Of a DNA stretch of 38,436 nt, positions 12,748 through 30,990 are shown piece by piece. Origin of the DNA: a virus; the IMG/VR virus record IMGVR_UViG_3300047409_000272, positions 1 to 38,436 of that record; one strand, written 5' to 3'. The position numbers were made by a program, and so were the translations under genes. Below the pieces are notes generated by a model. That model saw only the letters and a program-made list of their open reading frames with translations, was not told the DNA's origin and did not search any database. Numbering within the stretch: the first letter of the stretch is position 1; each line of letters opens with the position of its first letter.

Positions 12748-12861
12748 AACTTGAGATGCCCGTCTATATACTGAGAAAAGGCAGTATCGAAACGGATACC
12801 ACAGGCGAAGTCGTAGGCGCATCTCGCGCATATATACACCTACTATGCGAGGATATAACCA

Positions 12862-13035
12862 ATGTCATCGGAAGAGCCGAAGCAAGTGGAATCCGAAAGG
12901 ATTCCGGTTCACACGAAGAAGCCGGACTGCCTGCTGTGCAAGTCGAACAAAGAGCTTTTCGGAAGTACAATGGTAGTCTGCTATCAGGAAAAGTCAGCAA
13001 GCCCCGTGGCAGGAGAGCAGACTAGGCGGTTCTAA
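12862..13035 (+). CDS. 57-residue CxxC mini-protein
   Basis: Begins MSSEEPKQVESERIPVHTKK, with 'DCLLCKSN' and a later Cys (VVCYQ), so one probable metal-binding or redox site. The start has a good ribosome-binding site (GAGGATATAACC) and the stop overlaps the next gene's ATG (TAATG), which favours this frame over an overlapping 89-residue frame at 12756-13025. That alternative begins 9 bases after the TATACT and could be a near-leaderless gene; it cannot be excluded. Function unknown. Confidence 0.6.
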   Translation: MSSEEPKQVESERIPVHTKKPDCLLCKSNKELFGSTMVVCYQEKSASPVAGEQTRRF

Positions 13036-14318
13036 TGAATCTATACGCTAGCGCTGCAATGTACATCAGCATAGGTGGCCTCGCAGGCGCACTGGCGCTG
13101 AGTTCACTGCAGACGCAGCAAGCAAACACAATCACTCCAGCAGAAGCTACCGCTGGTGTGCAGGTGCAGACAGGGATCGAGGTGGAAGTGGCAACTATAG
13201 AACCAGCAACAATTATACCTTTGACGGCGGTTCCTCCAACGATTGCCACAACCATCGCTCCTCCTACGAACACGCTGGTACCTACAAGTACAGCTACGCC
13301 GACGGAGGATCCCACCCAGACGCCCATTCCTGAAGTGTTGGTTGCAGCATTTGCGACGCTGCCTCTATTCCCAACCAGAGTAGTGGCGTCTGCACCTGTA
13401 CAAGCACCAATCCCCAGGGTACCTACGCCTGTAGCTATAGAAGTGCCCGAGGTAGAAGAGGTACCTACAGAGGCTCCAGTACCTACACTAGCGCCCACTG
13501 CAACACCTATCCCTACGCCTGTCCCAACCAAGACTCCAGTACCGCCAGCCGTGGATGGGCAGACGCTAGCTGGTCAGTCCTGGCAGACGCAACAGGACTT
13601 TCTCGCTCTCCATGGCGATAACGCGCAGGAGGCGTGGGATACCGAGCATAACAACGTTATCGCTCGCGCTCCTATATATACGCCTATATATACGAATACG
13701 CCCGAGCGCGCAACGAGCGCACCCGATGCGCGAACTCCCGTGCGCACGCCTACCTTTATAATGGTCCCACAGGCTACTGCCACTAAAAAACCGACTGGAG
13801 GAGGAGGCTCTCAACCCACCCCCACTGAGACAGCTACTAGCACAAATGTGCTACCAACAGGGACCCCGACGCTACCCACTCTTTTGCCCTCCGTTTCGCC
13901 AACAACAGCGACGTCTACCGTCGTCAGCACGCCCCTCCCGACGCCCACGGTTTCCTCTACGCCCATACCCCCTACGAGCACTGGAGTACCTACTTCAACC
14001 ACCATACCCCCAACGAACACACCTGTTGTTTTGCCCTCTCCAACCCCCACTATTCTGCCGTCTCCAACCCCCTGTGGGAACAACGGTGTCAACTGTCGCA
14101 CACCCCTACCAACAGATACTCTGAGGCCCACATCTACATCAATTCCAACGTTCACTCCACGACCCACAATCACACCTCTACCAACCATTACCCCACGACC
14201 AACAATAACCCCTCGGCCGACGCCGACACCCACCTGCGTCATGCCAGGAAACAGCGGCATGTGTTGTCCAAATCTCGATCCAGGGGACAACTGCGGCGGC
14301 GGTCCCGTTTTGCCATGA
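13035..14318 (+). CDS. Membrane-anchored Thr/Pro-rich low-complexity protein
   Basis: 427 residues. Residues ~7-27 ('AAMYISIGGLAGALALSSLQ') form an N-terminal membrane anchor or uncleaved signal. Almost everything after is Thr/Pro/Ala/Val linker ('PTNTLVPTSTATPTEDPTQT', 'TITPRPTITPRPTPTPT'), broken by one possibly folded stretch at ~175-215 ('QSWQTQQDFLALHGDNAQEA'). The C-terminus has a Cys cluster (CVMPGNSGMCCPNLDPGDNC) that could be disulfide-bonded. TP-repeat linkers of this kind are frequent in Chloroflexota extracellular proteins. A cell-surface stalk, superinfection or lysis-related role is possible; none is shown. Confidence 0.75.
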   Translation: MNLYASAAMYISIGGLAGALALSSLQTQQANTITPAEATAGVQVQTGIEVEVATIEPATIIPLTAVPPTIATTIAPPTNTLVPTSTATPTEDPTQTPIPEVLVAAFATLPLFPTRVVASAPVQAPIPRVPTPVAIEVPEVEEVPTEAPVPTLAPTATPIPTPVPTKTPVPPAVDGQTLAGQSWQTQQDFLALHGDNAQEAWDTEHNNVIARAPIYTPIYTNTPERATSAPDARTPVRTPTFIMVPQATATKKPTGGGGSQPTPTETATSTNVLPTGTPTLPTLLPSVSPTTATSTVVSTPLPTPTVSSTPIPPTSTGVPTSTTIPPTNTPVVLPSPTPTILPSPTPCGNNGVNCRTPLPTDTLRPTSTSIPTFTPRPTITPLPTITPRPTITPRPTPTPTCVMPGNSGMCCPNLDPGDNCGGGPVLP

Positions 14319-14506
14319 TAGGTGCAGACGTCGTCACCGTAGGCACCATCATAGGTGCCCTGATAGGCACAGTAACTTTCCTTCTGAGAATATTGGTCTC
14401 AGCAAAGACAGCCCATATCAAGTCCCTGGAGGCACAACTCTCCGACGTCATCGCAGAGCGCAATCTCTACCGAGACCTCACCTTGTCCAACCGCCACAAC
14501 CCCTGA
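14315..14506 (+). CDS. Small single-pass membrane protein with coiled coil (holin- or spanin-like)
   Basis: 63 residues from MIGADVVTVGTIIGALIGTV. An N-terminal transmembrane helix (about residues 5-27) is followed by a heptad-like polar helix ('KTAHIKSLEAQLSDVIAERN'). The ATG overlaps the stop of the preceding gene (ATGA), so it is translationally coupled. This topology is seen in inner-membrane spanin subunits and in some holins. No endolysin is visible nearby, so the lysis assignment is only an inference from shape. Confidence 0.6.
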   Translation: MIGADVVTVGTIIGALIGTVTFLLRILVSAKTAHIKSLEAQLSDVIAERNLYRDLTLSNRHNP

Positions 14507-14508
14507 AC

Positions 14509-14528
14509 GGGATCATGAGAATGATCCC
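14509..14528 (+). other. Perfect 8-bp hairpin with GNRA loop
   Basis: GGGATCAT, loop GAGA, ATGATCCC. A perfect 8-bp stem closed by a GNRA-class tetraloop, starting 3 bases after the stop of the small membrane gene. There is no T-run on either side, so it is not a classical terminator; mRNA stabilisation, processing or a protein-binding site are possible. Confidence 0.6.
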
Positions 14529-14548
14529 TGGGTAGGGTCAATTGGGCA

Positions 14549-14626
14549 GTGGTGGCGATACTGCTCACCCTTTTACTGATGATGGTATACGTCCTCTATC
14601 TCGTTCATCTGAAGGATCTCCTATGA
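14549..14626 (+). CDS. 25-residue membrane peptide with GTG start (possible)
   Basis: The frame reads (V/M)VAILLTLLLMMVYVLYLVHL then KDLL: a single hydrophobic helix ending in a short polar tail. It starts GTGGTG, with AGGG 12 bases upstream as the only ribosome-binding candidate, and its TGA overlaps the next gene's ATG (ATGA), the same coupling used elsewhere in this cassette. It fills the gap between hairpin and next gene. It could be chance; codon conservation in a relative would settle it. Confidence 0.4.
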   Translation: MVAILLTLLLMMVYVLYLVHLKDLL

Positions 14627-14955
14627 CACGCATAGACAGAGAGCACGGCTACATCGAAGACTCACAACTCGACGGCAACACGCTCATCACGGTAACCGTG
14701 TACGATGTGCAGCCAACCACACCAGACCTCCTGGATCGCGTCCTCCAGATGGTACTGATAGAGGTAGGTGTGGATATTGCCTGGCAGCAGCCACCGCCCG
14801 TGGAGATCAATCCGCTGAATGCTCCGCTAGTTCCTGAAGCGGTGAATGTTCCTATACCTGAAGTAGAGGTAGGACCCACTCTTGAAGCTACGCCTACAGG
14901 GGAGCCACCACCCGTAGGTTCGGAGCCACGTTCAACGCATCCAGAGCCCTCGTGA
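14623..14955 (+). CDS. Small acidic Pro-rich protein, unknown
   Basis: 110 residues from MTRIDREHGYIEDSQLDGNT; start chosen by the AAGGATCTCCT site before it. Residues ~1-65 look like a small alpha/beta domain ('NTLITVTVYDVQPTTPDLLD', 'VLQMVLIEVGVDIAWQQ'). The rest is a Pro/Glu/Val linker-like tail with the same flavour as the Thr/Pro protein upstream. Last gene of the plus-strand cassette. Unrecognised. Confidence 0.65.
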   Translation: MTRIDREHGYIEDSQLDGNTLITVTVYDVQPTTPDLLDRVLQMVLIEVGVDIAWQQPPPVEINPLNAPLVPEAVNVPIPEVEVGPTLEATPTGEPPPVGSEPRSTHPEPS

Positions 14956-15168
14956 GGGTTTAGGGGTACCTTGGGTGTGTGGTAATGGGGGGCCTGCGAG
15001 CCTTAGAATCGTCAACGTCGTTGTCGAGACTAGGATTGGGTCTTGTTCTAGATGGTGGGTACCAGTGGGGTGTGTAGCTGGCGCTTGCGCTGCCCGCGGC
15101 CGGTACCTTGCGCTGGCCAGGGCCGTTTAGAGGCATTCTGGCGCTTAGCTGGCGCGGCGCTTGCGGAC
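14956..15168. other. Convergent intergenic spacer
   Basis: 213 bases between the end of the plus-strand cassette and the terminator of the minus-strand island. A weak CCCT/AGGG hairpin lies directly after the plus-strand stop. The right part (from about 15075) is already rich in TGGCGC and CTTGCG words. No supported gene. Confidence 0.5.
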
Positions 15169-15200
15169 ACAAAAAAGCGCCGACCATTGGGTCGGCGCTT
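15169..15200 (-). terminator. Intrinsic terminator
   Basis: Perfect 11-bp stem AAGCGCCGACC / GGTCGGCGCTT with loop ATTG; read on the minus strand it is followed by a run of T (TTTTTT). It ends the transcript of the gene at 15230-15628. Confidence 0.9.
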
Positions 15201-15221
15201 GCGGTCCGGCGCTGGTGTGGT

Positions 15222-15241
15222 GGCGGAGGCTAACCTCCGCC
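15222..15241 (-). other. Perfect hairpin with stop codon in its loop
   Basis: GGCGGAGG, loop CTAA, CCTCCGCC: a perfect 8-bp stem whose loop holds the TAG stop codon (15230-15232) of the minus-strand gene. A stop in the loop of a strong stem could affect termination or ribosome release; it could also reflect only the word bias of the region. Confidence 0.5.
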
Positions 15242-15628
15242 GCGCTCAACGCATACGCGACAGTGGCATCCGTCAAGCGGCGCGTTAGGCACCGCTGGCG
15301 CGGTGTCCTCCGCCGCGTAGTAGCGCCAGCGCCGCAACTGGCGCACCGCGCCGAGCACCATTGCTGCGAATGGTGAGAACGCTTGCGGCGCTGGTGTCGG
15401 CGCGTAGTAGAGGCTTGCGCCATCTTGAAAGCAATCGACAATCGAGTAACGCGCCACCGCTGCTAGTTCAAACGATGCAAGAGCGCGTCGGCGCTGGTGC
15501 TCAGTGGCGCGGTGGCTGAGGTATCGGTTGCTGCTAACGGTACACATGGTGGAGTCGCACCAGTCCGCATAGCGGACCGCGTGAAACGCGCTTGCTGGCA
15601 CCGCTGGCGCATTGTTGAGGGTAGGCAT
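15230..15628 (-). CDS. Cys-containing island protein, unknown
   Basis: 132 residues from MPTLNNAPAVPASAFHAVRY; the start is set by GGCGGAGGA nine bases upstream. It contains 'YADWCDSTMCTVSSNRYLSH', an Arg-rich helix ('RATEHQRRRALASFELAAVA') and a terminal 'DGCHCRVCVERGGG' with three closely spaced Cys, a possible metal site. Ala is mostly GCG/GCA, unlike the virion genes. It is followed by a stop-in-loop hairpin and a strong terminator. Unrecognised. Confidence 0.65.
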   Translation of the reverse strand: MPTLNNAPAVPASAFHAVRYADWCDSTMCTVSSNRYLSHRATEHQRRRALASFELAAVARYSIVDCFQDGASLYYAPTPAPQAFSPFAAMVLGAVRQLRRWRYYAAEDTAPAVPNAPLDGCHCRVCVERGGG

Positions 15629-15637
15629 GGTATGTGT

Positions 15638-15673
15638 CCTCCGCCAGTGGCGGACCGCGTAGAACGGTCCGCC
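15638..15673 (-). promoter_or_regulatory. Candidate SD-sequestering alternative hairpins
   Basis: On the minus-strand RNA the order is GGCGGACCG (segment 1), CGGTCCGCC (segment 2), then GGCGGAGGA (segment 3, the ribosome-binding site of the gene at 15230-15628). Segments 1 and 2 form a perfect 9-bp hairpin; segment 2 can instead pair with segment 3 (TCCGCC/GGCGGA, 3-base loop), hiding the ribosome-binding site. These pairings exclude each other, as in translational attenuators. The region's GGCGGA word bias is a reason for caution. Confidence 0.4.
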
Positions 15674-15683
15674 AGCAAGCAAA

Positions 15684-16883
15684 TTAGGCCAGTTTGACTC
15701 CGCCAACAATGTGCCAGTCCGCCGCGCCGCAACTGGCGCAATCGGCGGAGGTTACAAAGTTGCGAGCGGTGCAATGCTGGCACCGCGCCGTGGAGGTAAG
15801 AGCGCCGTTCGATTGCGCCGCTTGCGTCGGCGGAGTCGGCGCTTTCGGCGCAACTGGCGCGGTTGCTGGCGCTTGCGTCGGCGCTGGCGCGGCGGAGGCA
15901 CTTGCGGTGCCTCCATTGAATTGCGCGTAAGCGGCGGAGTCCGCGCCGATGAAACGGACACCAGCGGTGCCAATCGGCGCAAGTCGGAATCGTCCGTCAG
16001 GGTAAAGCGCCACCGCGTAGCCTCCGCCCATTGAAACCGTCAGGCTATCGTTACCCTTGACCGCGCCCACCGCATGCGGACCGATGCACGCCAGCCAAAC
16101 GGACGATATGACGGTTTGACCGCCGACGCGAAAACCGAGTTCTTGCAACCGCAAGCGAATCGCGGTGCTGAGCACCACATAGTCGGCGCGATTTGCGACA
16201 CCAGCGCCACCGCTCGCAAGCGCCACTAGGCCAGCGTATCGCGTGCCCGCCAGTTTTTGAGCGACACAAGAGGCATCGTCGGCGGAGCCGCGCCAAACCG
16301 CGATTGTGGCGTTAGCACGCGCCAGCAAATCGGAGTCAACCGCCAGCGCCGATGCGACAGTGGCGTTACGTTCGCTTGCAACCGCGCCGATTGGCCTACG
16401 TCCGTTGAGCACTGGCGCTTGCACTGGCGCTGGCGCGTCCTCCACTGTCGGCGCTGGCGCGTAGTGGCGCTCAATTGCTGCGAGCATGTCCGCGATTACT
16501 GGCGCTGGCATGTCCAGCGACTCCACCGCAGCAATACGCGCCGTTTTCTCAATGTCCAGCGCCGATTGTGCCTCCGCCAGCGCCAGCGTACCCAACGCGG
16601 TTTCACGCGCCGCGTGCAACGTTGCGGTGGCGGGATTGTCGGCGCTGAGCACCGCTAGCGCGGTGTCGATTTGCGCCAGTGCTGCGATTGCGTCGCGGAC
16701 CGCTGGCGCAATTTCAACCGCTGGCGCTTGCGGCTCCACCGCTGGCGCGGTGTCAGTTGCTGGTGTCTCTTGCATTGCTGGTGTGGTGTCCTCTTGCGCC
16801 AGTGGCGCGGTTGTCGCGGTTGTGTCGATCGGCGCGGCGCTGGTGTCCGCTGGTGTGGTGGCGCTGGTGCTCTTGTGAGCCAT
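15684..16883 (-). CDS. Ala/Pro-rich island protein with C-terminal zinc ribbon
   Basis: 399 residues from MAHKSTSATTPADTSAAPID (an upstream in-frame start at 16931 would cross the inverted repeat at 16897-16923). Residues 1-60 are Thr/Ala/Pro linker, ~65-150 helical, ~190-320 a folded domain ('VAQKLAGTRYAGLVALASGG', 'VVLSTAIRLRLQELGFRVGG', 'VKGNDSLTVSMGGGYAVALY'), then an Ala/Pro linker and a C-terminal zinc ribbon (CQHC ... CASC). Codon use is peculiar: Gln almost always CAA, Ala often GCG, Pro often CCA. Function unknown; the ribbon suggests nucleic-acid or protein binding. Confidence 0.7.
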   Translation of the reverse strand: MAHKSTSATTPADTSAAPIDTTATTAPLAQEDTTPAMQETPATDTAPAVEPQAPAVEIAPAVRDAIAALAQIDTALAVLSADNPATATLHAARETALGTLALAEAQSALDIEKTARIAAVESLDMPAPVIADMLAAIERHYAPAPTVEDAPAPVQAPVLNGRRPIGAVASERNATVASALAVDSDLLARANATIAVWRGSADDASCVAQKLAGTRYAGLVALASGGAGVANRADYVVLSTAIRLRLQELGFRVGGQTVISSVWLACIGPHAVGAVKGNDSLTVSMGGGYAVALYPDGRFRLAPIGTAGVRFIGADSAAYAQFNGGTASASAAPAPTQAPATAPVAPKAPTPPTQAAQSNGALTSTARCQHCTARNFVTSADCASCGAADWHIVGGVKLA

Positions 16884-16896
16884 TAGGGTTTCATCC

Positions 16897-16923
16897 GCGC
16901 CGCGTGATATAGGTGTGCGGCGC
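16897..16923. promoter_or_regulatory. Inverted repeat over the putative -10 of the 15684-16883 gene
   Basis: GCGCCGC (16897-16903) and GCGGCGC (16917-16923) are perfect 7-bp arms; between them lies a TATATC, the best -10 candidate for the minus-strand gene starting at 16883. An operator or 5' hairpin are both possible. Confidence 0.45.
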
Positions 16924-16979
16924 AAAAACAAGATAACCGCATCTCAGAATGGCGGAGGCATTATTGGCGCTTGCGCATT

Positions 16980-17002
16980 GTGCTAATGGCGGAGGTTAGC
17001 AC
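16980..17002. promoter_or_regulatory. Inverted repeat GTGCTAA-N9-TTAGCAC
   Basis: Perfect 7-bp arms at 16980-16986 and 16996-17002, centre-to-centre 16 bp, the geometry of a dimeric regulator site. It lies about 100 bases upstream of the 15684-16883 gene. A nearby ATATGTTGTATGC word recurs near 17284-17296. Confidence 0.4.
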
Positions 17003-17157
17003 CATATGTTGTATGCCTTCCGCCTGGACAGCGCCACCGCGTTATCAAATGCAAGCGCCGCCGAGATGCAAGCGCCAGCATTGTTTGTAAAACGGCGTTA
17101 GTCGAATCACAACCGAATCTCAATGTCAAGTCGGCAGCGTTAGCATATGCTTACTCA

Positions 17158-17341
17158 ATCAAGCGATTGATATTTACACCGTTGTAACGCAAGCGTTGTA
17201 TGTCTGTTACTCGATCAAGCGATTGATTGGCACTGCTAGCACACCACACCAGCTAAGCGCAAGTAAAGCGCCGCCGCCGACCGATATGTTGTATGCAAAA
17301 TAGAATATATTCTGTAAGCGCCGCTCGATCAATCGCTTGAT
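17158..17341. repeat. Three palindromic iterons ATCAAGCGATTGAT
   Basis: Copies at 17158-17171 (+), 17214-17227 (+) and 17328-17341 (inverted, ATCAATCGCTTGAT). Each is an inverted repeat in itself (ATCAA-GCGA-TTGAT). Flanks are partly conserved: TACTCA or TACTCG before the first two. Likely binding sites for a phage initiator or regulator. Confidence 0.75.
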
Positions 17342-17371
17342 TGATTGCCTGCGCCAGCGAGTTTTCAGTCT

Positions 17372-17520
17372 TTTCCGAAAGATCGGAAACGTCGTAACCC
17401 GCGGAAAGCGCAAGAATGCCGGAAGTGTCGGAAGTTTCGGAAATTTCCGAAATTTCGGACGTTTCGGAAGCGTCGGACATTTCGGAAATTTCCGAAATTT
17501 CGGACGTTTCGGAAACGGAA
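17372..17520. repeat. 9-bp-periodic TCGGAA/TTCCGA array
   Basis: A block of TTTCGGAAA/TTTCCGAAA units with 9-bp period. It contains two copies of the perfect 18-bp palindrome TTTCGGAAATTTCCGAAA (17435-17452 and 17480-17497) inside a 35-bp direct repeat (17435-17469, 17480-17514) offset by 45 bp. At its left edge TTCCGA-AAGA-TCGGAA forms a hairpin. Both strands stay open in frame and would encode Ser-Glu-Ile-type repeats only because the unit is 9 bp. Confidence 0.85.
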
Positions 17521-17533
17521 AAAACCCTCCCCA

Positions 17534-17762
17534 GAAACTACCGTCTTTCTGGGGTTTCGGGCCAGAATTACAGAAACTACCGTCCCTCTGGGACTCGCGG
17601 CCAGATCGCGATCTGTGGATCGGGATCAGTAGGAGAGAGGTCAGGGATCGGGATCGCGATCAATATGAAACTACCGTCCCTCCTGTCATTCTGGCCAGAA
17701 CTGAAGGAATAAGTAGCAATATAAAGGGCGAAAGTACCGTCTTCTAGCAGATTCTGGCCAGA
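17534..17762 (+). repeat. Four copies of a bipartite motif with invariant spacing
   Basis: GARASTACCRTC, 14 bases, GGCCAGA. Copies start at 17534, 17573, 17667 and 17730; in all four the second block begins exactly 26 bases after the first, while the 14-base middle varies. In copy 1 the first block lies in a perfect 9-bp stem with 8-base loop (CCCCAGAAA ... TTTCTGGGG). In copies 3 and 4 the second block is part of the palindrome TCTGGCCAGA. A fifth copy is at 18188-18220. Confidence 0.85.
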
Positions 17763-17971
17763 TTTAGACGCTTATCATAGCTAGAGGGAGAGACTCGCAC
17801 ACCCAACCACTATATAGACTAGAATTTTCAGGTTGATTTGACTAAGAACATTGCTACTTCACTGCATGCTACTAACCATAACACTGAGGGACTAGGTAGG
17901 GACCGACCTCTTTCGCGACGACTTACAGATCAGATGCCGCCCGCGGAACGCGACCTTTACATGGTCGGATA

Positions 17972-18129
17972 TCTAGACGTGGGGTCTAGACGGGGGGTAT
18001 CTAGACGGGGTATGGTCTCAAATCTAATGCAATTACTTCAGGGGCAATGTGCAAGAAACCTATGGCGAGACGCGTTAGTCTTGAATGCCACAGAGGGTTG
18101 ATTGCAATATCCAGCAGGGGGGTATCTAG
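17972..18129. repeat. TCTAGAC / GGGGGGTATCTAG repeats
   Basis: TCTAGAC at 17972-17978, 17985-17991 and 18000-18006, each followed by a G-rich run. The 13-mer GGGGGGTATCTAG occurs at 17992-18004 and again at 18117-18129. TCTAGA is itself palindromic. Not coding in any supported frame. Confidence 0.65.
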
Positions 18130-18187
18130 TGTGGTTTCCAGTTTCCTTCCTACCAAGCGACCTATTTGTACTGTGGGTAGTAGGCCT

Positions 18188-18220
18188 GAGAGTACCATCT
18201 TTCTAGGAAGTCTGGCCAGA
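18188..18220 (+). repeat. Fifth copy of the bipartite motif
   Basis: GAGAGTACCATC (18188-18199), 14 bases, GGCCAGA (18214-18220) within TCTGGCCAGA. Same orientation and same 26-base offset as the four copies at 17534-17762, about 430 bases away and only 10 bases from the end of the next minus-strand gene. Confidence 0.8.
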
Positions 18221-18229
18221 TTTTGGCGT

Positions 18230-18520
18230 TTACTGAGTAGTAGCTTCCGCCCGCACAACAGCGTTTGCGTCCACAAGGGTTAGGTTCTTGACCCTACATG
18301 TAATCCACACCTTGGCGATGTGTAGTTCCCGCATGCGGATCAGGTATTGCCCACACTTGAAAACATACCAGAGGCCCTCCTCTTCAAATATCTGATAGCC
18401 GTAGTAGGCTATTGTCCCCTGCGCTTCGTTGTAGAAACCCGCCAGGACCGCTTGCCTGTAGATTTCCAGACGCGTGGCCTCATTACGTAGCGCCTCAGTT
18501 GTACTGATAATGCCAGCCAT
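18230..18520 (-). CDS. Small accessory protein, unknown
   Basis: 96 residues from MAGIISTTEALRNEATRLEI. The start follows GAGGGCACT and leaves about 10 bases to the predicted transcription start of a TGGTATAAT promoter; the longer ATG at 18535 would sit on the -10. Residues 8-45 are helical, then 'IAYYGYQIFEEEGLWYVFKC' and further strands. No family recognised. It is the last gene before the repeat region. Confidence 0.65.
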   Translation of the reverse strand: MAGIISTTEALRNEATRLEIYRQAVLAGFYNEAQGTIAYYGYQIFEEEGLWYVFKCGQYLIRMRELHIAKVWITCRVKNLTLVDANAVVRAEATTQ

Positions 18521-18537
18521 AGTGCCCTCGTGCATGA

Positions 18538-18543
18538 ATTATA
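18538..18543 (-). promoter_or_regulatory. Extended -10 promoter TGGTATAAT
   Basis: Perfect TATAAT with an upstream TG (extended -10) on the minus strand, directly before the gene at 18230-18520. The 18-bp -35 position reads TAAAAG, unlike the common family of this phage. Confidence 0.5.
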
Positions 18544-18564
18544 CCATTTTCCCCATATCTACTT

Positions 18565-18981
18565 TTAGTTCCTCAGATCACCGCAATCTTGCCCACACAT
18601 GCAGTTGGTCGCGCGGTAGGGGTAAAAGAGGCCAGGCATTCCAGGCTCTGATTTCTTGTCAAACTTCTCGGAATTGCACCCGTCGCAAATCATAAGCAAT
18701 CCAGCCTTGATTTCCTCAGGGTCACCACACATTCCCGCCTTGCACAACGGGCAAGGAATAAGTCCCAGTGGTGGACTGTGGCACTCACATTCACAAATCT
18801 GTGGCTGAGCACTGTGGTCGCAGCAGGTGTTGGCTTCTGGGGGAGCTTGGCACTCCCCACAGTTGTACGCCCGAAAACCGACGTGGCAATCGCTGCAATA
18901 CCACTTGAACTTCCCACAGGTGGGGCACGCGAGCCGCGTAAGGCTCCCGTCGTAGTGGCACGCGGTGCAGAAGTTATCCAT
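18565..18981 (-). CDS. Multi-zinc-ribbon protein
   Basis: 138 residues from MDNFCTACHYDGSLTRLACP with about 20 Cys. Successive pairs: CTAC, CPTC, CSDC, CGEC, CCDH, CECECH, CPLC, CDGC and CMCGQDC, enough for four or five zinc sites. This reads as a chain of small zinc ribbons with no enzyme motif. The start overlaps the preceding gene by 8 bases and follows GGAAGGG. Probable nucleic-acid or host-protein binder. Confidence 0.75.
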   Translation of the reverse strand: MDNFCTACHYDGSLTRLACPTCGKFKWYCSDCHVGFRAYNCGECQAPPEANTCCDHSAQPQICECECHSPPLGLIPCPLCKAGMCGDPEEIKAGLLMICDGCNSEKFDKKSEPGMPGLFYPYRATNCMCGQDCGDLRN

Positions 18982-19174
18982 CGATGTGTACCCTTCCTTC
19001 ATTCAGCCAGGTGACGCGGGCAGCGTTGATTGCAGGCCCCTTCACATCAGTATACAACACGAAGTAGTTGTACTTCCAGCCCTTGTTGACCATTTGAGTA
19101 AGGGCGCTCTTGCGCGCCGCCTCACTCTTGTACACCCGCCAGAGGCTGGTTTTGCTCTTTATCAGTGTTGCCAT
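18974..19174 (-). CDS. 66-residue protein, unknown
   Basis: From MATLIKSKTSLWRVYKSEAA, after the standard AGGAGTGAGAACA site. It contains an amphipathic basic helix ('SEAARKSALTQMVNKGWKYN') and a strand-turn-strand end ('YFVLYTDVKGPAINAARVTW'). The length and 'Y.s..aA..aL..mv..Gwk' pattern recall small phage proteins that modify host enzymes, but no family is certain. Confidence 0.65.
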   Translation of the reverse strand: MATLIKSKTSLWRVYKSEAARKSALTQMVNKGWKYNYFVLYTDVKGPAINAARVTWLNEGRVHIDG

Positions 19175-19185
19175 TGTTCTCACTC

Positions 19186-19356
19186 CTAACCGTTGAAAGG
19201 GCGATTGTTATCGCCCTGTGCTGGAATTACGTTCAACATCCACGGGTTTTCTGCCACGACGCGCTTGCATCGGCGGCAGCTCGGTGCCTCACGGCACGCT
19301 TCATTGCTGCAACCCTTTGCGGAGCAGCACGCGTCGTTGTAATCTTGCCACTGCAT
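19186..19356 (-). CDS. 56-residue Cys-rich protein
   Basis: From MQWQDYNDACCSAKGCSNEA, start set by GGAGTGAGAAAC. Cys at 'ACCSAKGC', 'EACREAPSCRRC' and basic 'KRVVAEN': six Cys in the first 34 residues, a likely zinc-binding knot. Unrecognised. Confidence 0.6.
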   Translation of the reverse strand: MQWQDYNDACCSAKGCSNEACREAPSCRRCKRVVAENPWMLNVIPAQGDNNRPFNG

Positions 19357-19385
19357 GTTTCTCACTCCAGCCCGTAGACGGGGGG

Positions 19386-19832
19386 CTACTCCCCCCGTGC
19401 TTGCGGTCCTGTCTGCCCGCCCAAGTGCGGGAAACGCTTTGTTGTCGGTGCGGGGCTGCTTGGACCCTTTGGCATCACCCGCCGTTCTCCCGTCCACGGC
19501 CCCTTGGGCATTGACGCACCCTGGTAGTCCCGCGTGGGCTTGGGCATCGGTTTCTGGCCCTTGCCGCTTGGACGGTTGGCCCTGTCGGCCGCCACTTGCT
19601 CGGGCGTGGGGTCATACGGCTTGCTCAGCTCAGCCTGCCGCTTCTTGCTCATGGCCCGCAGCATGTTTACGAACTCTTCGTATTCCTCGGCCTCGACGTA
19701 GCCTTGGGCTTCCATTCGGTCGACCCATGCCAGATAGCGGCCAGGGTCACTGGTTACAAATTCTGCTTTGGGGGCAGAGAACGGGCTGTCTCCCCTGCCC
19801 ATACGAAACATGAAACCGTGGTACTCAGGCAT
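19386..19832 (-). CDS. Accessory protein with disordered Lys/Pro tail
   Basis: 148 residues (MPEYHGFMFRMGRGDSPFSA). Residues ~25-75 are helical ('YLAWVDRMEAQGYVEAEEYE', 'LRAMSKKRQ'); the C-terminal half is Pro/Lys/Gly-rich and disordered ('MPKPTRDYQGASMPKGPWTG'). First gene after the promoter at 19906-19935, with a long leader. Unrecognised. Confidence 0.65.
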   Translation of the reverse strand: MPEYHGFMFRMGRGDSPFSAPKAEFVTSDPGRYLAWVDRMEAQGYVEAEEYEEFVNMLRAMSKKRQAELSKPYDPTPEQVAADRANRPSGKGQKPMPKPTRDYQGASMPKGPWTGERRVMPKGPSSPAPTTKRFPHLGGQTGPQARGE

Positions 19833-19905
19833 TAGACCTTACCATTTCTATACGCAGGCCCACTGCGCCCATGCCGCGTATGAAAACCTTTTTTGGGCAC
19901 ACTAC

Positions 19906-19935
19906 ATTTTGCCCCATGGAAGCTTCTTGCTGCAA
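19906..19935 (-). promoter_or_regulatory. Promoter, TTGCAG-18-CAAAAT
   Basis: -35 at 19930-19935 in GGGATTGCAG context, 18-bp spacer, -10 CAAAAT at 19906-19911. Member of the repeated promoter family; drives 19386-19832 and the genes after it. Confidence 0.65.
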
Positions 19936-19961
19936 TCCCTTGCTGAACCTGTGCCGAGTGT

Positions 19962-19986
19962 AGAAAGGGGGGCCTTTCGACCCCCC
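19962..19986 (-). terminator. Intrinsic terminator
   Basis: GGGGGG / CCCCCC stem (19967-19972 and 19981-19986) with an 8-base loop, followed on the minus strand by TTTCT. Ends the transcript of the gene at 19997-20149, just upstream of the next promoter. Confidence 0.75.
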
Positions 19987-19996
19987 AGACCAGGGG

Positions 19997-20149
19997 CTAC
20001 TTCGCCTCCAGCGCCTGCTCAATTGCATTGAGCGCATTGAAAGCAAACATCATACCGACCTGCTTTTGGTTCGCAAGGAACCATGCACGCATCGTATACA
20101 GCTCCAACCTTGGGCGCAGTTTCAGCGCTTCCACTTCCACGTTGTACAT
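19997..20149 (-). CDS. 50-residue helical protein
   Basis: From MYNVEVEALKLRPRLELYTM, start set by CCAGGAGTGGTTC. The rest is helical with a hydrophobic face ('QVGMMFAFNALNAIEQALEA'). The longer open frame begins inside the promoter (GTGGCATACT) and is rejected. The leader contains a GCCCC-AA-GGGGC hairpin. Unrecognised. Confidence 0.6.
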   Translation of the reverse strand: MYNVEVEALKLRPRLELYTMRAWFLANQKQVGMMFAFNALNAIEQALEAK

Positions 20150-29665: not shown

Positions 29666-29941
29666 CTAAGCCGATATCACGTGTGGTGGCGGGACAGGCA
29701 CATGGAAGATGCGCCCATCCTTATGCTGTATCCTGCGCCCAATGGGCTTGAAACCGCCACGGTTCCACTGGTAGATTGATAGTTCTCTTTCGAAGTTGTG
29801 GTCCCAATACGCCCACGCCTTTTCGTAGTACATTGTGTAGACCACTGGTATCACTCCCTCGCCTAGGGATTTTGGCTTCACTCCAACGACGTACATGCCA
29901 TCTACCATGTACGGCCTGTTTTGATACAGGCGTTCTCCCAT
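29666..29941 (-). CDS. 91-residue aromatic-rich protein
   Basis: MGERLYQNRPYMVDGMYVVG start after AGAGGGCA. Tyr/Trp-rich ('YTMYYEKAWAYWDHNFEREL', 'YQWNRGGFKPIGRRIQHKDG'). Beta-rich with a short helix; no family recognised. Single-gene unit from the promoter at 29992-30021. Confidence 0.6.
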   Translation of the reverse strand: MGERLYQNRPYMVDGMYVVGVKPKSLGEGVIPVVYTMYYEKAWAYWDHNFERELSIYQWNRGGFKPIGRRIQHKDGRIFHVPVPPPHVISA

Positions 29942-29991
29942 TGCCCTCTATGCTCCAGGCTGCCAGTCTTGCCACTGCTACGCCTTGGTAC

Positions 29992-30021
29992 AGTGTAGCA
30001 GCTAAGACTGTTCCGGTGCAA
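29992..30021 (-). promoter_or_regulatory. Promoter, TTGCAC-18-TACACT
   Basis: -35 TTGCAC (30016-30021), 18-bp spacer, -10 TACACT (29992-29997). The -35 lies inside the last codons of the gene at 30002-30274. Confidence 0.65.
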
Positions 30022-30274
30022 GTGGCCTGTTGAGAGGCATTTGATCGTGTTTGCGGTAGCAATCTACGCTGCAGAAGATGTCTGTACCAAACTCAATCGT
30101 TTGGCCCTTCTTCGCTGTTGCGAAGCGGTACACCATCGGTTTCAGCAGGTGGCAGAAGACACAGGGCGTCTTGTTGATAAAGTTCTTGGTCCCCTGGCTG
30201 AACAGTAGGGTATCCTCGTTGTCGTACGTCCCCACTAAACGAAAAGGTTTGCCACGCGGCTTTGCATTGGTCAC
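30002..30274 (-). CDS. Treble-clef/zinc-type protein, frame overlaps its neighbour
   Basis: 90 residues from a GTG start at 30274 (MTNAKPRGKPFRLVGTYDNE) 11 bases after AGGAGG. 'TPCVFCHLLKPMVYRFATAK' and 'DIFCSVDCYRKHDQM' form a CxxC...CxxxC site resembling FCS/treble-clef fingers. The upstream gene's frame stays open across 182 bases of this gene. Either two genes overlap or the upstream Cys-rich segment and this one form a single protein joined by a frameshift. Confidence 0.6.
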   Translation of the reverse strand: MTNAKPRGKPFRLVGTYDNEDTLLFSQGTKNFINKTPCVFCHLLKPMVYRFATAKKGQTIEFGTDIFCSVDCYRKHDQMPLNRPLAPEQS

Positions 30275-30392
30275 AGATGATGTCGCCTCCTGGCACCGAC
30301 ATGCCACAATCGACGCATAACCCTGGCGGGAACTCTAACGAACCATGCGGCAGAGGACAGTCATCCTCGATGCAGTAGCACAGTCGCGTCAT
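30093..30392 (-). CDS. Cys-rich N-terminal protein, frameshift candidate
   Basis: 99 residues as read (MTRLCYCIEDDCPLPHGSLE). The first 45 residues look genuine: 'LCYCIEDDC' and 'GLCVDCGMSVPGGDIICDQC' form a zinc ribbon. The C-terminal ~55 residues, which overlap the gene at 30002-30274, have no fold-like pattern. A +1 shift near the end of the ribbon would join it to the next zinc finger. ATG coupled to the upstream stop (ATGA). Confidence 0.55.
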   Translation of the reverse strand: MTRLCYCIEDDCPLPHGSLEFPPGLCVDCGMSVPGGDIICDQCKAAWQTFSFSGDVRQRGYPTVQPGDQELYQQDALCLLPPAETDGVPLRNSEEGPND

Positions 30393-30595
30393 GCTTTTGA
30401 CTCAAACTGGTCCAGCGTTACCCCACACCTGATTCCGTCATCTGACGAAATTACAGAACTAACCACTTCGACATCCCAGCCAGTGTGGGCGTCATGGTCC
30501 AGCACTCGGACCAGTTCGCGTGGGTTCTCGTAATCTACTTCATCACCAACATGGGTAGCCCGAAGCCACCACAGCTCGCCAACCTCAGGTGTCAC
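30389..30595 (-). CDS. 68-residue SH3-like protein
   Basis: GTG start at 30595 (MTPEVGELWWLRATHVGDEV), coupled to the upstream stop (GTGA). 'VGELWWLRATHVGDEVDYEN' then 'VRVLDHDAHTGWDVEVVSS' is the pattern of small SH3/Tudor-like barrels in phages. The longer open frame upstream overlaps the neighbour and is rejected. Confidence 0.6.
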   Translation of the reverse strand: MTPEVGELWWLRATHVGDEVDYENPRELVRVLDHDAHTGWDVEVVSSVISSDDGIRCGVTLDQFESKA

Positions 30596-30990
30596 GGCAG
30601 GTTGCCATCCCGCTTGTTGCACTCGTCTTCCATCTGCCCGATAAAGGCATCCACTACACCAATCACTGTGGCGGCGGCATTGAGCCACTCGTTTTCGTCT
30701 GGGTCTTCGTCGCCCGTAACCTGCCCCTTGAACAGGTCCTCGGAGCACCCGTCTTCCAGATACTCCAATACGTCCGGAGGTATGACGTCTTCCCATGCTT
30801 CCCACCCAACGGTGCCGTTGAATGTACCAAGCATGACCTTGAACGCCGTGGCCTCAATCCAGCGCCACTGCTCTTCCGTCCATTGGTAGTTGTACTCGAC
30901 CTTTCCCTTTGCCAGAGAATTGCTATCCCACTTGGTAGCCTCTGCCAACTCGATGGTCAATGTCAGCTTGCGCGTTGCTGTATCCGTCAC
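30592..30990 (-). CDS. 132-residue acidic protein
   Basis: GTG start (MTDTATRKLTLTIELAEATK), coupled to the upstream stop, after GGAGAAACGTTGGA. 'KLTLTIELAEATKWDSNSLA' strand-helix, Trp-rich helix 'YQWTEEQWRWIEATAFKVML', acidic helices after ('LEYLEDGCSEDLFKGQ', 'VVDAFIGQMEDECNKRD'). Strongly acidic; unrecognised. Confidence 0.65.
   Translation of the reverse strand: MTDTATRKLTLTIELAEATKWDSNSLAKGKVEYNYQWTEEQWRWIEATAFKVMLGTFNGTVGWEAWEDVIPPDVLEYLEDGCSEDLFKGQVTGDEDPDENEWLNAAATVIGVVDAFIGQMEDECNKRDGNLP

Follow-up and report, generated by a model that had tools for sequence, protein, structure and literature searches.

The DNA analysed here, a 38,436-base virus record (IMGVR_UViG_3300047409_000272, positions 1 to 38,436; hereafter the window), carries five copies of a two-block element within an interval in which no gene was called (window 16884-18229). 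As judged from sequence comparison, this element is probably a promoter, and the cluster a tandem array of leftward (- strand) promoters, with putative operators, in a tailed phage of about 90 kb. If this is true, the array would be a first way into the control of transcription in an uncultured phage lineage, and its unusual -35 block would provide a defined target in the search for the factor that recognises it. The link between promoter and palindrome would also make a repressor-operator model directly testable with cloned DNA.

The Virus and Its Relatives

A 90,615-base contig (G001) belongs to the same virus as the window, with an identity of 99.997-100%. The ends of G001 overlap by 127 bases, and the window spans that overlap. 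Nearly all genes called in G001 are on the - strand. The sheath, portal, major head protein, and terminase matched in the window virus are those of a tailed phage with a contractile tail, and family matches of the G001 proteins include a DnaB-like helicase, a primase, Pol III alpha, and RecA. A thymidylate synthase homologue was found at G001 29817-30983. A protein of the 5-hmdU DNA kinase family (PF18723) was found outside the window at G001 41766-42692 on the - strand (L032 1766-2692), where it is adjoined by a radical SAM protein. The kinase-family protein and the thymidylate synthase homologue hint at hypermodified thymine.

Relatives were collected by a terminase search, which gave ten contigs, G001 included. 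Five of them (G001, G002, G003, G006, and G007) reach the array region. The others are fragments of 4.6-7.5 kb, where no more than 1.1 kb separates the start of the terminase match from the upstream end. These five fragments end too close to the terminase to reach the array, which in the window lies 5.9 kb upstream, and they contained no match to the element.

Among phage records, 655 had a terminase match, every one less than 60% identical, the 15 matches listed being 23-26% identical. The phage records gave no DNA match to window 16000-20000 in a distant search or to window 1-25000 in a near search; they gave no match for the zinc-ribbon protein described below, and only distant ones for TerL. 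Peptide-pattern scans found no TerL in genome contigs.

Five Copies of a Bipartite Element in the Window

On the + strand the element reads GARASTACCRTC-N14-GGCCAGA. A preceding sequence-only reading had placed five copies at 17534, 17573, 17667, 17730, and 18188, and all five were exact, with 0 mismatches. At up to 3 mismatches the shuffle mean for the window was 0.04 and none of 100 shuffles reached five. There was no sixth copy in the window at this threshold, and the whole of G001 contained the same five copies only. The same reading had described the copies as co-oriented and restricted to a gene-poor region, which was confirmed for the window and for the whole of G001. Their spacing is irregular (39, 94, 63, and 458). 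A chance origin of the five copies was rejected by the shuffles, the whole-contig count, and the position weight matrix (PWM) scores given below.

The element had been given on the + strand. The flanking genes lie on the opposite strand, so the reverse complement is probably the functional form. Read in this way, the element is AAAATCTGGCC-N13/14-GAYGG-TANNNT-C, and the features of the region are as follows.

15684-16883, - strand: downstream gene, a 399-aa Ala-rich protein that ends in a CxxC...CxxC zinc ribbon
16884-17533, - strand: predicted leader, from the array to the downstream gene, its first part folding more stably than shuffles
17384-17527, no strand assigned: array of CGGAAATTTCCG-type palindromes with a 9-base period, at the start of the predicted leader
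17534-17566, - strand: array copy 1, with block B/-10 at 17534-17545 (predicted -10 hexamer 17535-17540) and block A/-35 region at 17560-17566
17573-17605, - strand: array copy 2, block B 17573-17584, block A 17599-17605
17667-17699, - strand: array copy 3, block B 17667-17678, block A 17693-17699
17730-17762, - strand: array copy 4, block B 17730-17741, block A 17756-17762
17770-17777, - strand: extended -10-like TGATAAGC, separate from the array, just upstream of copy 4
18188-18220, - strand: array copy 5, block B 18188-18199, block A 18214-18220
18230-18535, - strand: upstream gene, a 101-aa protein

Copy 5 is the most upstream in gene direction and stands directly behind the stop of the 101-aa gene. 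The separate TGATAAGC aligns with CATGATATAATG / CATGATATACTC in the relatives.

Conservation of the Array in Five Genomes

All five genomes have the array region, an interval of about 1.3-2.1 kb flanked by the 101-aa gene and the Ala-rich zinc-ribbon gene. The copies are co-oriented with the flanking genes. The downstream gene was homologous in all five, its product being kept at 36-47% identity, and the 101-aa protein was conserved in all five at 45-47%. The G007 homologue of the 101-aa gene had been missed by the gene caller and was located by tblastn. Neither protein could be assigned to a family: the 101-aa protein had no match in Pfam or NCBIfam and the zinc-ribbon protein none in Pfam, PHROG, or NCBIfam. 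The structure model of the latter was poor (pLDDT 60, pTM 0.40).

In the five regions, 49 rows matched GAYGGTANNNTC with at most 2 mismatches, and 22 were kept as copies (20 exact and 2 with one mismatch). Of the 27 rows dropped, 26 had two mismatches; the other, G002 1737, was exact, lacked block A, and lay within an ORF. By our assignment, the 22 copies lie in the homologous noncoding region, five each in G001 and G007 and four each in G002, G003, and G006. The gap between the blocks was 14 bases in 16 copies and 13 in 6; it was 14 throughout in G001, G002, and G006, and 13 in 4 of the 5 G007 copies and 2 of the 4 G003 copies. The offset of 26 bases, which had been called invariant, thus held for all five window copies and within some of the relatives, and was not invariant over the whole set: it was 25 in the six copies with the shorter gap and 26 in the other 16 of the 22. 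With the offset fixed at 26 and up to 3 mismatches, the original pattern was found 5 times in G001, 3 times in G002, 4 times in G006, once in G007, and not in G003. A gap tolerance of 13 or 14 bases is usual for promoters and fits a -35/-10 spacing.

In a PWM scan of the five contigs the array copies scored 21-39 bits and the best other site 16.9, a score gap that is flattering because the matrix was built with the array copies themselves. Shuffles (5 per contig) reached 17.4, about equal to the best non-array site.

Promoter-Like Features of the Element

The consensus over the 22 copies is AAAA-TCTGGCC-N13/14-GAYGG-TANNNT-C, 32-33 bases in length. Counts per position out of 22 were T 22, C 20, T 20, G 21, G 21, C 16, and C 18 in block A. 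In block B they were G 22, A 22, C/T 18/4, G 21, and G 22, followed by the hexamer T 22, A 21, G 17, T 13, T 16, and T 22 and then C 22. The block-B figures are partly built in, since the copies were selected by GAYGGTANNNTC, whose pattern already contained NNN. Numbered as a promoter, and subject to the same selection, the element has T at -12 in 22 of 22 copies, A at -11 in 21, and T at -7 in 22. The G of an extended -10 TG is present at -14 in 21 of 22, whereas at position -15, where T would be expected, 18 copies have C and 4 have T. For gap 14, TGGCC stands at -36 to -32 with the bacterial-type -10 downstream, and an A-tract lies at -39 to -42 (A in 14, 17, 15, and 16 of 22). The commonest hexamer, TAGTTT, is weak; two G006 copies have TATATT and TATACT. 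G-17, A-16, and C-6 were each found in 22 of 22 copies, again partly by selection with GAYGGTANNNTC, and this conservation, which exceeds the needs of sigma-70, counts against the promoter reading to the extent that it was not built in.

Because of this bias, a pattern derived from the window only was added, in which every block B column was specified, with gap 13 or 14 and at most 5 mismatches. It gave 18 sites in the regions of the four relatives, namely all 17 kept copies and G007 5232. Their block-B mismatches fell at -10, -9, and -8 in 17 of 21 cases, in 3 of the 12 columns, which form the variable middle of TANNNT. The remaining four were at -17, -14, -13, and -11, and none was at -12, -7, or -6.

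The array resembles sigma-70-type extended -10 promoters (TGn-TATAAT) in T-12, A-11, T-7, the G at -14, the variable positions -10 to -8, and the presence of an upstream element in the -35 region with an A-tract above it. It differs from them in C-15 (18 of 22), the mostly TAGTTT hexamer, TCTGGCC for TTGACA, and the kept G-17, A-16, and C-6. No TTGACA-like hexamer was found 16-18 bases upstream of the -10, where TGGCC at -36 to -32 stands instead. A sigma-70 consensus scan of the region gave 2 sites against 2.0 expected, neither of which uses TCTGGCC/TANNNT; one of them overlaps copy 3 with other hexamers.

A Palindrome in Phase with One Predicted Start per Genome

The palindrome GATCNNGATC was concentrated in the array regions. 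The five regions, together 3.3% of the contig sequence, contain 24 of the 26 copies found in the five contigs (binomial p 1e-33). The window has four copies, the only ones in the whole 90.6-kb contig, and each is within the array region:

17604-17627 (17604-17613 and 17618-17627), no strand assigned: two GATCNNGATC between copies 2 and 3
17646-17661 (17646-17655 and 17652-17661), no strand assigned: two overlapping GATCNNGATC, a putative operator at the predicted start of copy 3

With the predicted start taken as T-12 plus 12, each genome has one array copy with a GATCNNGATC whose centre falls at +4 or +5 (5 of the 22 copies). Copy 3 is the only window copy with a palindrome so placed, at about +5. 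A GATCNNGATC was found at +4 to +14 in 7 of 22 copies, and overlapping ones sometimes lie 6 bases beyond the start-centred one. Other placements were two at -41, two at -48/-49, and three more than 300 bases off. This phase with the start is as expected of an operator, and GATCNNGATC is a putative one. Common descent of one promoter-operator unit could be an alternative reason for the phase, since the copies that share it are similar DNA.

When GATC palindromes with spacers of 0 to 8 were compared, spacer 8 (5 of 7) and spacer 4 (4 of 4) were also concentrated in the array regions. The former is expected from tandem units with a 6-base period; this period of the GATCNNGATC units gives no explanation for the confinement of spacer 4. 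Among 11 control palindromes, GTACNNGTAC (GTAC) had 2 of 3 copies in the regions, CGCGNNCGCG (CGCG) 2 of 6, and GCGC 4 of 36, and the other eight had none. Dam-type control of the GATC sites was considered and rejected: PF02086 matched none of the 5 records and 4 of the 14 controls, and PF01555 none of the 5 records and 11 of the 14 controls. A ribbon-helix-helix repressor was likewise rejected (PF01402 in 0 of 5 records, with 10 of 14 controls matched).

Predicted Leader and Downstream Gene

The distance from the last copy to the gene start was about 0.55-0.75 kb over the five genomes. The first 150-nt window of this leader was more stable in folding than dinucleotide shuffles in every genome, with z values of -2.8 in G001, -2.5 in G003, -4.8 in G006, -5.1 in G007, and -4.2 in G002. 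Later leader windows were often not more stable than shuffles (z up to +1.1), and 24 random windows of G001 and G003 ranged from -2.4 to +1.5, with one at -4.2. Copy 1 is overlapped by a terminator-like hairpin on the - strand (17529-17554; CCCCAGAAA-GACGGTAG-TTTCTGGGG-AGGGTTTTTT), which has a perfect 9-bp stem, a T6 tail, and a z of -3.2, and a weaker terminator-like match at 17582-17594 overlaps one further copy. Transcripts from the upper copies might end at the copy 1 hairpin.

Short palindromic or near-palindromic words (GCGCTTGCGC, TTAGCATATGCTAA, and CGGAAATTTCCG) are dense in the leader and the Ala-rich gene (window 15000-17530). The same palindrome-rich placement was seen in L007, L012, L013, and L038, with word types that differ between genomes.

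Block A Outside the Array

In the five contigs, array copies included, AAATCTGGC occurs 22 times, 21 times in the sense and once in the antisense orientation, and 16 of the 21 sense copies lie outside called genes. Among the 14 non-array AAATCTGG copies outside called genes, 7 are followed by TG[AG]T[AT] at the array spacing. Shuffles gave a mean of 0.155, and none of 20,000 reached 7; this statistic is too generous, as it covers all 14 copies and 5 of them look coding by eye. A fairer count is that 4 of the 9 non-coding-looking sites keep the -10, the shuffle figure applying to 7 of 14. Of these four, G003 84479 carries T in place of A at -11, and G001 35701 may sit where an ORF ends. Two sites bridge to better extended -10 elements by joining them to block A, namely CGTGGCC-N14-AATGGTATAATG in G002 and TCTGGCA-N13-AATGATACTATC in G007, the latter also being among the four.

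In the converse test, no block-A peak was found upstream of 46 TG[AG]TA...T sites between genes, which indicates that block A marks a minority of promoters at most. Upstream of 163 looser TG[AG]TA sites, block A showed a small rise at -26 to -24 (6, 6, and 5), over a background that was mostly 2-4 yet also reached 7 at -5.

Proposed Mechanism

We propose that RNA polymerase would start at the array copies, with a bacterial-type -10 kept and TCTGGCC in place of the -35. Block A, TCTGGCC, may be read by sigma itself, by a phage activator that stands in for recognition of a -35 (as MotA does in T4; PMC2988021), or by a changed polymerase. The transcripts would cross the hairpin-rich leader and continue into the zinc-ribbon gene, which is conserved in all five genomes. 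A dimeric repressor bound to GATCNNGATC may switch the array, closing the promoters perhaps after the early phase.

A broader claim is tentative and on the doubtful side: TCTGGCC / GAYGGTANNNTC could define a phage-specific promoter class, served by host RNA polymerase remodelled by a phage factor, with 4-5 copies before one gene and the GATCNNGATC operator in phase with the start as on/off control. The factor of such a class would possibly be adapted to hypermodified thymine. Phage sigma region 4 (PF04545) was matched in 0 of 5 records and in 14 of 14 controls, a search from which divergent factors could escape and in which three records (13-54 kb) are presumably partial. T7-type polymerase (PF00940) was also matched in 0 of 5 records, in a search without a positive control since the controls were silent too. 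Promoters of T7-type single-subunit polymerases are contiguous elements of about 23 bases. Like the array they are phage-specific and repeated, whereas the array has two blocks and a variable middle instead.

A close comparison is with the T4 middle promoters, nearly 60 in number, which need an excellent -10 and carry a MotA box, (a/t)(a/t)(a/t)TGCTTtA, separated from the -10 by 12 +/- 1 bases (PMC2988021). As described there, they are like the array in having a phage-specific box for the -35 together with a host-type, often extended, -10 (PMC2988021). The array differs from that description in its block, TCTGGCC, which lies 18-19 bases from the hexamer and is unlike the MotA box in both sequence and distance, and in a poor -10 and an occurrence as one cluster plus a few candidate sites.

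Alternative Explanations

The sequence-only reading had offered three explanations, namely a protein contacting two sites, a phage-specific promoter, and a recombinase or initiator site. It had not included the gene-strand reading, the TANNNT signature, or the GATCNNGATC palindromes. The promoter fits best of the three, and only when the element is read on the gene strand.

It is in our view unlikely that an initiator or partition protein of the phage binds the elements, the region being a replication origin or centromere-like and the -10 likeness incidental. In favour of this reading, the repeats are clustered and co-oriented, are accompanied by palindromes, and keep their position in five genomes over a long interval in which no genes were called. 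A DnaB-like helicase, a primase, and Pol III alpha are encoded by the phage itself, and A+T peaks of 0.67-0.73 per 60 bases occur in the regions (mean 0.49-0.51), as would suit an origin. Against it, the irregular spacings (39, 94, 63, and 458) are unlike those of iterons. Only one DnaA box, with one mismatch, was found, in one of the five regions, and the cumulative skew of G001 and G003 had no global turning point at the region, apart from a small local rise in G003 at 75-80 kb. This left little support for the initiator site, and variable positions inside TANNNT likewise argue against it. Slightly harder to accept is one regulatory protein that contacts both blocks, as a repressor or in a stoperator-like manner, and starts no transcription by itself. 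The asymmetric blocks, about 2.5 turns apart and co-oriented with transcription, would suit such a protein, and bases are kept beyond the needs of sigma; however, all 5 copies lie in one region of 90.6 kb, stoperators being dispersed through the genome, and a separate symmetric candidate operator is present in GATCNNGATC. Cluster A mycobacteriophage stoperators are 13-bp single blocks at several loci per genome (PMC6550527). They share with the array that they are short asymmetric repeats, mostly in one orientation relative to transcription (PMC6550527), and the array differs from this account in being bipartite, 32-33 bases long, and confined to one region.

Two further readings are less credible than these. 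Action in RNA, as hairpins or terminators, is very improbable: no common fold was found over the 22 copies (mean z -0.53), and no Rfam family reached its gathering score in window 15000-20000, where 5 sub-gathering matches to microRNA families all fell on the CGGAAATTTCCG array. The perfect 9-bp hairpin of copy 1, followed by six T (z -3.2), the overlap of a second copy with the 17582-17594 match, and the good folding of a few other copies (z down to -4.2) are what this reading can draw on. A recombinase site, for attachment or resolution, we consider close to negligible. The bipartite layout with a variable middle would suit it. Against it, the core of such a site is normally conserved, and the middle is the least conserved part of the element; there are also multiple unequal copies, and no integrase was found among the proteins scanned, which cover part of the genome. 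The promoter reading remains the preferred one.

Wider Searches and Other Features of the Region

In a viral collection, a relaxed form of the pattern matched at least 120 stretches, and among the matches listed (about 80) only G001 had more than one match. A promoter-plus-operator pattern matched 38 stretches, 5 of which are the known contigs; tblastn of the called G001 proteins against the other 33 found nothing at 1e-8. One of these 33, L175, is protein-coding by eye. Searching the literature for the motif strings gave, among the matches listed, papers on other subjects by title, each with one AAAATCTGGCC occurrence.

At window 12756-14955 a small group of + strand ORFs lies within the otherwise - strand region, convergent with the zinc-ribbon gene. 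It includes a 427-aa Pro/Thr-rich ORF (13035-14318, + strand). The TP-rich style may be reminiscent of Chloroflexota proteins.

ORFs inside the array region of two relatives were recognised after the regions had been cut. Between two array copies of G002 lies an 83-aa ORF (L007 1512-1763, + strand) that looks ribbon-helix-helix-like by eye (E 0.082 against RHH_10). It was seen in G002 only, comparison with the other contigs giving no convincing homologue (best E 0.31), and is a candidate local regulator. A LAGLIDADG-like ORF (L007 736-1164, + strand; E 0.053) and an HNH-like ORF (L038 19314-19703, - strand; E 0.25) gave weak matches and are possible homing endonucleases. Finally, a block near CATCTGATCTATAAGTCGTCGC (window about 17890-17945) aligns in all five regions and lies at least about 150 bases upstream of the main group of array copies.
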